A stretch of 38,842 nucleotides of DNA, from the IMG/VR virus record IMGVR_UViG_3300024262_000009, positions 1 to 38,842 of that record, one strand, 5' to 3'. Positions 33,859 through 38,533 of the stretch are shown here, piece by piece. A model generated the notes under the pieces. The model was not told the origin of the DNA. It worked only from the letters and a program-made list of their open reading frames with translations, and ran no database searches. How positions within the stretch are numbered: the stretch's first letter is position 1; every line of letters starts with the position of its first letter. The translations under genes and the position numbers were made by a program. This DNA is from a virus.

Positions 33859-34014
33859 ATGAAAGAAAAAATAACAATTTCAAGTTTAACTTGCAAGAGG
33901 TGCAATTATTTTTGGATTCCACGTAAAGAAGAATTACCAATAACTTGCCCTTCTTGCCGAAGTCCCTATTGGAATAAAGAAAAGAGAATAAAATCGAATG
34001 ATAAAAGAAGTTAA
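33859..34014 (+). CDS. Zinc-ribbon protein, 51 aa
   Basis: First gene after promoter P3, about 16 bases after its -10, so its leader is almost absent. One zinc ribbon: LTCKRCNYFWIPRKEELPITC-type with CPSCRSPYW at 30-38. The CxxC...FWxPR...CPxCxSPYW pattern recurs in small proteins of phages and archaea. The end overlaps the HNH gene by 17 bases. Confidence 0.75.
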   Translation: MKEKITISSLTCKRCNYFWIPRKEELPITCPSCRSPYWNKEKRIKSNDKRS

Positions 34015-34654
34015 AAAAGGTCGAAATGGAAAATATTGTATCTGTATTTGTGATTATTGTTTAATGGAATTTAAGAGAGATTTTAATACAGCAGTAAAAT
34101 CAAAACATAACTTTTGTAATTATTTTTGTATGGGAAAATGGCAATCAGAAAATTTAATAGGAGAAAAGGCTACAACATTTGGTTATAAACATACCAAAAA
34201 AGCAAAGGAAAAAATAAGAATAGGGCATATTGGATTAAAGATGTCAGAAAAAAACAGAATAGAATTAATTAAAAGAATGAGCGGAAAAAATAGTCATCGT
34301 TGGAAAGGTGGTAGAAGAAAAGATAAAGATGGATATATTCTTGTTTATATACCCAACCATCCAAATGCAAATAGAGATGATAATTTTATTTTAGAACATA
34401 GATTAATAATGGAAAATTATTTAGGGAGACATCTATCACCCAATGAAATAATTCATCATATTAATATGGATAAATCTGATAATAGAATAGAAAATCTATA
34501 TCTTTATTCAGATAATGGACATCATACAAAAGATTATTTTTATATAAAAGATTTAATCAAGGAACTTTTAAATAAAGAAATAGTTGAGTTTAAAGAAGGA
34601 AAATACATTATTAAAAATAAAAAAGGAGATGAATTATGCCTATCAAAAATTTAG
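33998..34654 (+). CDS. NUMOD3-HNH_3 homing endonuclease
   Basis: A zinc-binding CDYC...FCNYFC N-terminal module (about 18-44), a NUMOD3-like helix (YKHTKKAKEKIRIGHIGLKMS), then SHRWKGGRR leading into HNH_3: FILEHRLIMENYLGRHLSPNEIIHHIN (about 126-152) and DNRIENLYLYSDNGHH. It lies between the zinc ribbon and annealing-type genes, overlapping each by 17 and 19 bases. Its end supplies the AAAAGGAGATG site of the next gene, so the insertion preserves neighbour translation. Confidence 0.9.
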   Translation: MIKEVKKGRNGKYCICICDYCLMEFKRDFNTAVKSKHNFCNYFCMGKWQSENLIGEKATTFGYKHTKKAKEKIRIGHIGLKMSEKNRIELIKRMSGKNSHRWKGGRRKDKDGYILVYIPNHPNANRDDNFILEHRLIMENYLGRHLSPNEIIHHINMDKSDNRIENLYLYSDNGHHTKDYFYIKDLIKELLNKEIVEFKEGKYIIKNKKGDELCLSKI

Positions 34655-35919: not shown

Positions 35920-36258
35920 ATGAATAACATACAAAACAGATTAGTAAATTACTTACAGACTTATTGTTATGGCAAATCTAACGCAATCAGTAAAGACAGG
36001 CTTGCCAGGTATTTTGATATTACTACCAGGGAACTTAGAGATTTAAAAAGGGATATTGTAATAAATGAAGGTATTCCTATCGGTAGCACAAAATCAGGTT
36101 ATTTCTATGCAGCCAATAAATTTGAACTCATGCTATTTAGGGGTGAAAATTATTCTAGGTTTATAAGCCATAAAGTAATGATGGACGCTTACGATTTAAT
36201 GATTTTAAAAGATGAACACACAGAACAATTGAAATTAATAGATGTTAAAACTAAATAA
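35920..36258 (+). CDS. Winged-helix DNA-binding protein, 112 aa
   Basis: Residues about 22-70 make a helix-turn-helix with wing: AISKDRLARYFDITTRELRDLKRDIVINEGIPIGSTKSGYFYA, the HTH_11-like layout in which a GYFYA strand follows. The helical end (RFISHKVMMDAYDLMI) could mediate dimers. It might act in replication or early regulation. Its last 17 bases overlap the methyltransferase start. Confidence 0.7.
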   Translation: MNNIQNRLVNYLQTYCYGKSNAISKDRLARYFDITTRELRDLKRDIVINEGIPIGSTKSGYFYAANKFELMLFRGENYSRFISHKVMMDAYDLMILKDEHTEQLKLIDVKTK

Positions 36259-36460
36259 AATATATTGCGGAGATTGTAAGGTAGTAATGAAAGAGATTGA
36301 TAATGAAAGTATCAATTGCTGTATTACCTCTCCGCCTTATTGGGCTTTAAGGTGCTATCTACCAGATACAGTTAAACTAAAAGATACTATTACGGGAGAA
36401 GAAAAAGAAAGTGTATTAAAAGAATTGACGTTATTAGGCATTAGTAGTATAATAAGGTAA
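36242..36460 (+). CDS. DNA methyltransferase, N-terminal part (split by HNH insertion)
   Basis: Begins LKLNKIYCGDCKVVMKEI and has the catalytic motif CCITSPPYWALR (27-38). The SPPYW form favours N4-cytosine methylation, with the order (SPPY first, FxGxG last) of class beta. Homologues run on into GLExTFEEY within a few dozen residues. Here the frame instead ends at a TAA (36458-36460) overlapping the ATG of an HNH gene. The rest of the enzyme resumes at 36992, so the gene is split into a 72-residue catalytic-motif piece and a large C-terminal piece. They may assemble as two chains. Confidence 0.85.
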   Translation: MLKLNKIYCGDCKVVMKEIDNESINCCITSPPYWALRCYLPDTVKLKDTITGEEKESVLKELTLLGISSIIR

Positions 36461-37008
36461 TGAGAGATAATAAAGGAAAATTTAAAAAGGGCTTTACATG
36501 GAGAAACACCAAACCATATTGGGATAGAGAATGGCTTCTTGTTCAGTATATAACATTGGGTAAAAGTTCTTCCGATATAGCAAAAGAGCAGGGGTGCCAT
36601 CGTAACAATGTTTACTACTTTTTAAAGAAATTTAATATAAACACAAGAACACTTTCGGAGGCAAGAAAAAATAAATATTGGGGACTATCCGGTGTTGATA
36701 ATCCTATGTGGAATAAATTAGGTGAACTAAATCCTAATTATAAAGGTGGAATAACTCCAGAAAGACAAGCATTTTATATAAGCCAAGAGTGGAAATCGGC
36801 TTGTAGTAAAGTTTGGAAAAGAGATAAAGCAACTTGTCAAAGATGTGGGTTGCATAAAGAAACGGATATGCCATTTCATATCCACCATATTAAAAGTTTT
36901 AAGTATAAAGAACTACGTTCTGATATAAATAATCTAATTTTACTTTGTGAAACTTGTCATCAGTGGACACACTCCGGGGGGAACAAAAACAATGATTACT
37001 TACAATAA
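36460..37008 (+). CDS. HTH-HNH homing endonuclease splitting the methyltransferase gene
   Basis: A helix-turn-helix (YITLGKSSSDIAKEQGCHRNNVYYFLKKF, about 29-57) gives DNA binding. A linker with GVDNPMWNKLGELNPNYKGG follows, then HNH: KRDKATCQRCGLHKETD, HIHHIKSF (about 147), and ILLCETCHQWTH. It starts one base inside the stop of the methyltransferase N-part and overlaps the C-part start by 17 bases. The whole insert is about 550 bases, all of it coding, leaving no space for an intron core. HNH codons here freely use NNT before A/G. Confidence 0.92.
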   Translation: MRDNKGKFKKGFTWRNTKPYWDREWLLVQYITLGKSSSDIAKEQGCHRNNVYYFLKKFNINTRTLSEARKNKYWGLSGVDNPMWNKLGELNPNYKGGITPERQAFYISQEWKSACSKVWKRDKATCQRCGLHKETDMPFHIHHIKSFKYKELRSDINNLILLCETCHQWTHSGGNKNNDYLQ

Positions 37009-38533
37009 GAAAGACATACCTGAAAATTTACAAAAATACTTTGAGCCCGCAGAATTAGGCCTTGAATCTACATTTGAAGAATATATTAATAAACTCTGCA
37101 ATATTTTTGATGGGGTGAAACGAATATTAAAAAAAGACGGGACCTGTTGGGTTGTGATTGGAGATACTTATGGTGGAACCGGTATAGGACAAGAAAAATC
37201 AATGGAAAGTAAAAATAAACAAACCGATGGTCAATATGAATTAGCAACAGAAGCAAGAAACTTAAAAAATATAGCCACAAAAGGAATATATGATAAATGC
37301 TTATTGATGATACCTTTCCGTTTTGCAATAGAAATGGTTAATCGAGATACAATGGATATTTATGAGCTTGATAAAAGTTATATTTTATGTAATAATATAG
37401 ATATTACAAATAATATAACTGGAGTACACAATGCCATACAAAGACAAGGAAAAAGCAAAAGAATATTCACGAATATATGCAAAGAAATGGAGGAATGCCC
37501 ACAAGGAACAATACCACAACCGAATGATAAAGTGGCAAGAGGAGAACAGGGACAAGACACATCAATACAGCCGAAAATATTATTGGCTTCATCGAGAACA
37601 GGAAATAACCAGAGTGATGAAAGGAAATACCAAGAGACACAGACGATTAAAAATGGAAGCAATAATACACTATGGTGGAAATCCTCCGAAGTGTGCTTGT
37701 TGTGGGGAGACGATTTATCTATTTCTAACGATAGACCATATCAAAGGGAAGACAAAAGAACACAAAGCAGAATTAATAAAATATGGCTCAATCTACGAAT
37801 GGTTAAGGAGAATGAATTATCCGCAAGGTTTCAGAGTTTTGTGCATGAACTGCAATTGGTCAATCGGGAAATTTGGATTTTGCCCCCATCAAGAGGAAAA
37901 AACCTTTGTATACGCAAACGAGACATCCCCATAGAATTACTACCTTTATTTAAACTATATAAAGAAGAACGATGGTGCTTGAGAAATACGATAATATGGC
38001 ATAAGCCTAATTGTATGCCGGCTTCAGTTAAGGATAGATTTACGGTTGATTTTGAATATGTATTCTTTTTTGTAAAGAATAAGAAATATTGGTTTGAACA
38101 ATTATTTGATGAATATACAGAACCACTAGACAGATGGGGCGGTCCTGAAATAAGAAAATCAAGTCATAAATATATTGAGATTGGCGAGCCCAAACTTGGT
38201 AAATTTGGAGCTACCTCTATGTTTAGAAAGGGTTGGCCAGTTAGACCAAATGAAATAGGACGTAATAAACGATGTGTTTGGCAAATAAAAACAGCACAAT
38301 TCCCGGAAGCACACTTTGCAGTTTATCCAGAAGAATTAATTGAACCGATGGTAAGGGCAGGTTGTCCTGAAAATGGAGTTATAATTGACCCGTTTATGGG
38401 AAGTGGGACAACCGGAGTGAAAGCCAAAAAACTTGGTAGAAATTTCATCGGTATAGAAATAAATCCCGATTATGTAGATATAGCAAACAGGAGATTAGCA
38501 AATACATATTTTCAGCCGGAGTTAATTAAATGA
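36992..38533 (+). CDS. DNA methyltransferase, C-terminal part, with an HNH gene nested in another frame
   Basis: ATG 36992, with GGGGGG about ten bases upstream, begins MITYNKKDIPENLQKYF. The methylase continues: LGLESTFEEYINKL, GTCWVVIGDTYGGTG, IPFRFAIEMVNR. After the nested HNH region come DIPIELLPLF, WCLRNTIIWHKPNCMP, SVKDRFTVDFEYVFFFVKN and the AdoMet motif DPFMGSGTTG (near the end). The true methylase parts flank about 168 codons (37431-37934) whose frame-2 translation has no methylase likeness but no stop. There is no good restart codon after 37934, so C-terminal motifs are reached only by reading through. Activity is unknown. Confidence 0.85.
   Translation: MITYNKKDIPENLQKYFEPAELGLESTFEEYINKLCNIFDGVKRILKKDGTCWVVIGDTYGGTGIGQEKSMESKNKQTDGQYELATEARNLKNIATKGIYDKCLLMIPFRFAIEMVNRDTMDIYELDKSYILCNNIDITNNITGVHNAIQRQGKSKRIFTNICKEMEECPQGTIPQPNDKVARGEQGQDTSIQPKILLASSRTGNNQSDERKYQETQTIKNGSNNTLWWKSSEVCLLWGDDLSISNDRPYQREDKRTQSRINKIWLNLRMVKENELSARFQSFVHELQLVNREIWILPPSRGKNLCIRKRDIPIELLPLFKLYKEERWCLRNTIIWHKPNCMPASVKDRFTVDFEYVFFFVKNKKYWFEQLFDEYTEPLDRWGGPEIRKSSHKYIEIGEPKLGKFGATSMFRKGWPVRPNEIGRNKRCVWQIKTAQFPEAHFAVYPEELIEPMVRAGCPENGVIIDPFMGSGTTGVKAKKLGRNFIGIEINPDYVDIANRRLANTYFQPELIK
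37431..37934 (+). CDS. HNH homing endonuclease nested inside the methyltransferase frame
   Basis: Basic repeats (YKDKEKAKEYSRIYAKKWRN, NRMIKWQEENRDKTHQYSRKYY) followed by HNH: PKCACCGETIYLFLTIDHIKGK (about 86-107) and VLCMNCNWSIGKFGFC. It resembles the gene at 147. All 504 bases lie within the methyltransferase ORF in a shifted frame, which has no stop. Codon choice differs from the other HNH genes: 16 of 16 pyrimidine-ending codons before AA, AG or GA end in C, where T would create a stop for the methylase. Elsewhere T:C is about 31:16 by hand count. Strong sign of overprinting. Confidence 0.9.
   Translation: MPYKDKEKAKEYSRIYAKKWRNAHKEQYHNRMIKWQEENRDKTHQYSRKYYWLHREQEITRVMKGNTKRHRRLKMEAIIHYGGNPPKCACCGETIYLFLTIDHIKGKTKEHKAELIKYGSIYEWLRRMNYPQGFRVLCMNCNWSIGKFGFCPHQEEKTFVYANETSP

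Follow-up and report, generated by a model that had tools for sequence, protein, structure and literature searches.

We analysed a stretch of viral DNA of 38,842 nucleotides (IMGVR_UViG_3300024262_000009, positions 1 to 38,842), referred to here as the window, and all coordinates below are window positions. It carries a gene for a DNA methyltransferase (MTase) that is divided by one HNH nuclease gene (H1) and harbors a second (H2) within its downstream part. The features of the locus are:

36242..36460, plus strand: MTase N-part, 72 aa; phrog_67 DNA methyltransferase, E 1e-9
36329-36340, plus strand: catalytic SPPY motif in the N-part
36359..36457, plus strand: N-tail, the first half (strand-helix) of a ~50-residue module, LPDTVKLKDTITGEEKESVLKELTLLGISSIIR
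36460..37008, plus strand: H1, free-standing HNH gene splitting the MTase, 182 aa; PF01844, Pfam HNH, E 6e-12
36976..36982, plus strand: G-rich Shine-Dalgarno-like site for the C-part, within the H1 coding sequence
36992..38533, plus strand: MTase C-part, 513 aa counted from the ATG at 36992
36992..37054, plus strand: C-head, the second half of the ~50-residue module, MITYNKKDIPENLQKYFEPAE
37346..37972, plus strand: in-frame insert carrying H2, 627 nt, 209 codons; missing from uninterrupted MTases
37431..37934, plus strand: H2, second HNH gene, nested and in a frame different from that of the MTase; phrog_2255 HNH, E 9e-8
38387-38416, plus strand: AdoMet motif DPFMGSGTTG in the C-part

The TAA of the N-part and the ATG of H1 share one base (TAATG), the C-part begins with a 17-base overlap with the end of H1, and nine nucleotides separate the G-run from the C-part ATG. 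An initial annotation of this DNA had described these two overlaps, the G-rich site and ATG belonging to the C-part, and the division of the motifs between the two parts, and the sequence bears out each of these as well as the nested position of H2, which lies wholly inside the C-part. The limits of the H2 insert were set against uninterrupted alleles, and its length is a multiple of three, so that it keeps the frame.

The MTase belongs to the beta class of amino-DNA MTases, with motif IV preceding motif I and a match to PF01555 (E 9e-44), and the predicted structure of an uninterrupted relative (L206) resembles the beta-class enzymes CcrM, M.PvuII, and M.RsrI. Nuclease signatures are present in both inserted genes. 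H1 conserves HIHH and paired cysteines in its PF01844 domain. H2 conserves IDH and paired cysteines; its assignment comes from phrog_2255, and a Pfam search of H2 gave no HNH match. A third HNH gene (PF13392) lies at 33998-34654 and has a 19-base overlap with the start of the next gene, which encodes a recombination-directionality-factor-like protein (PF18897).

Extra sequence in the window was defined against close relatives that lack the inserts (L011 and others). The module interrupted by H1, LPDTVKLKDTITGEEKESVLKELTLLGI...YNKKDIPENLQKYFEPAE, follows SPPYW-LR and precedes the conserved block that comes next. An AlphaFold model of L206 predicts the module to be strand-helix-loop-helix (pLDDT 76-95 per block), and the H1 cut maps to the loop between its helices. 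The split thus falls within the MTase and past SPPYW, as the initial annotation had it, but about 35 codons later rather than directly after that motif. The two halves of the module could dock with each other.

Three relatives (L206, L207, and L212) carry the module uninterrupted and without an HNH gene, and represent empty alleles of the H1 site. Comparison with them indicates that the H1 insert is approximately the HNH open reading frame alone, which leaves no room for a ribozyme. A search of Rfam returned zero matches at E values up to 5, and hence no group I or group II intron. We rejected an intron for both H1 and H2 because there is too little non-HNH sequence and the Rfam result is empty, and an intein because H1 comes after the host stop codon and H2 is out of the host frame. 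The earlier statement that neither ribozyme nor intein has space here is therefore upheld.

The arrangement of G-rich site and start codon seen in the window is also found in L039, L041, and L043. In several split loci the 3' end of the HNH gene contains a G-rich site and the ATG or GTG that opens the C-part. Because this end of the gene holds both the ribosome site and the start of the C-part, the restart signal seems to travel with the H1-type element.

About nine divergent phage lineages have this MTase split at this loop by an H1-type HNH gene. Split loci with an HNH of the H1 family are L039/40, L041/42, L043, L213, L214-217, L218, and L284, and L073/75 has the same split with a more diverged HNH. 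In a scan for the H1 family, all 16 of 16 contigs place the HNH gene at or beside an MTase of this kind. Between L213 and L214 the HNH genes have a dS of 0.087, whereas dS is 0.58 for the MTase N-part and saturated for the C-part. Near-identical nuclease genes between strongly diverged MTase halves show that the HNH moved recently between phages, and by this measure its transfer is independent of the host gene, as homing predicts.

In L038 and L285 the HNH gene is immediately upstream of an intact MTase. L285 and L287 (PopTart_59/60), where the HNH abuts the intact MTase from upstream, represent a second arrangement of the gene pair. A candidate scrap of MTase upstream of the HNH in L038 and L285 was discarded, as it had no significance against shuffles. 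Some split copies do decay: positions 1081-2046 of L274 hold an N-part and an H1-type HNH, but the C-part is missing downstream.

H2, at site 2, presents a different case from the H1 split at site 1, because the MTase frame stays open through it. Expected numbers of stop codons were computed from the H2 protein and the codon usage of the genome: 17.3 are expected in the MTase frame through H2 and none is observed (exact P 8.8e-12). In L001/L002, whose H2 is 71% identical and occupies the same site, there are 0 stops versus 12.4 expected (P 7e-8); the H2 DNA of L001 and L002 is identical, so they count as one lineage, and the evidence for an open frame comes from two lineages. Controls behaved as expected, with 25 stops observed versus 23.7 expected for H1 and 20 versus 22.0 for L010, a split site-2 allele. 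Free-standing relatives of H2 (L017-L025) have 7-17 stops in the corresponding frame, and a wide scan of 65 gap-free H2 relatives turned up just two that are free of stops there, the L002 copy and an 81-codon fragment. Third-position T is used at 18% in H2 versus 34% genome-wide, and a calculation based on H2's own codon usage still predicts 8.9 stops. Where residues are unchanged, synonymous codon change affects 38 of 108 codons in H2 versus 59 of 91 in the MTase 3' flank (P 4e-5).

We conclude from the absence of stops that the MTase frame is maintained by selection across H2 and that translation of the MTase very probably continues across it, yielding a 209-aa in-frame insert. This makes splicing less likely, since an insert that is removed needs no stop-free frame. 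Placed close to the active core, an insert of 209 residues could well be detrimental to the enzyme. Our search found no uninterrupted long form of site 2. The initial annotation missed both that H2 differs in kind from H1 and that the H1-type split recurs in many phages.

Other alleles of this region vary. In L009 (at about 3.8 kb) and L010 (at about 1.7 kb), the site-2-split MTases are additionally interrupted by an in-frame stop immediately past SPPYWGL, and L009 has lost the first half of its HNH gene but retains the two MTase parts. L001 (3150-3420) and L002 (3930-4170) have a further MTase insert before the AdoMet motif, with paired cysteines (CVKCGK...DCGC) of zinc-ribbon-like character.

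Among the split loci the MTase halves have dN/dS values of 0.12-0.39; given the horizontal arrival of H1, these also reflect history predating the split. Measured against five outgroups, the window C-part and the unsplit L011 are about equally diverged, and the window MTase keeps 84 of the 93 columns that are invariant in unsplit enzymes, similar to unsplit enzymes in leave-one-out comparisons. Judged by its divergence, the window MTase gives no sign of accelerated decay. It consists of two open reading frames that retain the conserved motifs, which is the genes-in-pieces arrangement of the Aeh1 nrdA type. A structure prediction of the C-part alone has a pLDDT of 32, too low to be informative. 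Activity of the MTase as two chains is predicted from these sequence features, and the phage apparently accommodates both nuclease parasites while keeping the enzyme.

We favor, with moderate confidence, the reading that two unrelated free-standing HNH homing genes invaded one beta-class MTase gene and that the enzyme most likely continues to be produced. H1 would occupy a surface loop of the helix-loop-helix module, the first chain would end at H1's own start codon (TAATG), and the 3' coding end of H1 would provide the ribosome site and start for the second chain. As H1 supplies both the stop/start overlap and the restart site, the N-part, H1, and the C-part could be made in turn from the mRNA, and the two MTase chains would pair non-covalently via the module halves. 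In H2, codon choice would avoid third-position T and leave the MTase frame free of stops, so that a single stretch of DNA would be read as an HNH protein in the H2 frame and as a 209-residue insert in the MTase frame. Translation, chain pairing, methylation, and endonuclease activity are all putative, as read from the DNA.

Several other explanations have to be weighed against this one. If the MTase were a dying pseudogene, destroyed by the two HNH insertions with its halves merely lingering, copies such as the N-part and HNH of L274 would be expected; however, about nine split lineages retain the two halves intact, the window MTase is without excess divergence, and a stop-free frame through H2 (P about 1e-11) would be without reason, so we consider this unlikely. 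That open frame would be equally needless if the inserts were removed by RNA splicing or another way of skipping the gap (a short intron or ribosome bypass) that restores one chain. Although the fixed insert sites and the frame-keeping H2 insert are what such removal would call for, Rfam offers no intron match, comparison with uninterrupted alleles shows that the H1 insert exceeds its open reading frame by very little, and H1 lineages retain the start codon and ribosome site of the C-part, which makes removal of the inserts very improbable.

An explanation closer to our own accepts the split as real and functional but attributes the open frame to odd codon usage in H2 rather than to selection for read-through. 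The low use of third-position T agrees with this, yet stops are still expected under H2's own usage, the second lineage has none where 12.4 are expected, and the free-standing relatives L017-L025 do have stops; we give it only a slim chance. Invasion of a still-functional MTase by two homing genes thus remains the preferred reading.

The module also occurs elsewhere. A profile HMM was built from site-1 modules, and shuffled sequences score at most 9.5 bits against it. The site-2 flanks of L010 score 37 bits and the ends of mycobacteriophage MTases 30-32 bits; the flanks of H2 in the window reach 9.8 bits, a weak match given shuffles of up to 9.5. A tail match is present in 84 Mycobacterium phage records, in which a different MTase terminates right after the tail (for example ShiLan and Ksquared). 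In the mycobacteriophages examined that lack a nuclease, the tail is followed by ~75 nt and then a 29-residue open reading frame corresponding to the head (phrog_7789). In PopTart_63 this mycobacteriophage MTase is uninterrupted. Since these modules match those of site 1, two MTase families are cut at the same module, with different nucleases or none.

In L223 and L270 (Ksquared and ShiLan) the MTase is annotated as two or three genes, with the break at the tail/head module and no nuclease. The 29-aa 'hypothetical' gp66 of ShiLan, in the series gp65/gp66/gp67, is the head, and the frame changes directly after AHPT. In L225 and L226 (Kari and Seagreen) the gap separating the MTase halves is occupied, on the opposite strand, by a Vsr-like nuclease gene (1523-2320, minus), and Ksquared resembles an empty gap relative to these filled ones.

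We also considered whether nuclease genes carry the module with them. H2-type HNH genes as general carriers were rejected after tests of 67 H2-family loci, nearly all of which lack the module: both flanks are found only in L341 (L010's own copy) and a head in L288 (the L002 copy). The uninterrupted alleles rule out that the tails are purely element-borne. The H2-family census favors a module that is a domain attracting elements over one borne by the elements. A wide distribution in bacteria was likewise rejected, as ~1,190 genomes from three phyla gave weak, mostly single-helix matches, and a tail match at a DNA polymerase boundary in Pectobacterium phage PP2, where the head is missing, was judged to be chance.

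Only tentatively do we go further and suggest that the module is a portable, split-tolerant docking device and that H2 is rendered harmless through two-frame coding; we regard this joint reading as rather doubtful. Phage DNA MTases would have acquired the module at three or more positions, and unrelated homing-type nucleases (H1-type HNH, H2-like HNH, and the antisense Vsr-like nuclease of mycobacteriophages) would occupy its loop because a cut there leaves two chains able to reassemble. The module would then be a non-covalent analogue of an intein.

Homing genes usually spare the host gene by means of introns, inteins, or an intergenic position. H1 would represent another way of sparing the host, a cut at a recurrent module from which two chains can be made, and H2 would do so by overprinting, with the nuclease gene written so that the host frame remains readable. 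The nested H2 is the more unusual part of the locus. If the module truly docks split halves, it would offer a natural split point for engineered MTases.

The parallel to Aeh1 drawn in the initial annotation, which also recognized the HNH genes as free-standing, is apt. The Aeh1 nrdA gene is split by the free-standing HNH gene mobE and the split enzyme is active, and gene 43 of phage 25 encodes another homing-split phage enzyme that is still active (PMC2988022). In Aeh1 and in the window alike, a free-standing HNH gene has broken the coding sequence of a phage enzyme in two, and the UAAUGA overlap of T4 nrdA/mobE resembles the TAATG at H1. In contrast to Aeh1, the host here is a DNA MTase cut in a recurrent module, and its activity in split form is putative; the window also has a second, nested HNH gene that is out of frame with the host and leaves the host frame open. 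The T4 topoisomerase split by mobA and the homing-associated 43A/43B genes of an Aeromonas phage likewise represent homing-linked division of a phage gene into separate chains; however, their host proteins are different, and no dual-frame nested gene is described for them (PMC2988022). Gosselin 2023 (PMC9957025) reports an actinophage methylase family with an intein, a LAGLIDADG insertion, and a ShiLan domain. That family resembles ours in being repeatedly invaded at fixed sites, but its insertions are in-frame in the protein, and a tail/head split of the chain is not described in the sections considered.

The division of the two motifs between chains had been put forward as new. In the open-access literature we found no earlier split of a beta-class amino-MTase with the motifs on different chains, nor a homing gene nested out of frame with the host frame kept open. 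A split methylase in general is not wholly new: M.AquI and M.EcoHK31I are natural two-chain methylases with motifs divided between the chains (PMC3404938). Like the window MTase they are natural DNA MTases of two polypeptides; they differ in being C5 enzymes with other break points, and the passage describing them mentions no homing gene. Two-chain methylases were thus already known, and we conclude that the locus is a real, new variant of genes-in-pieces homing insertions.
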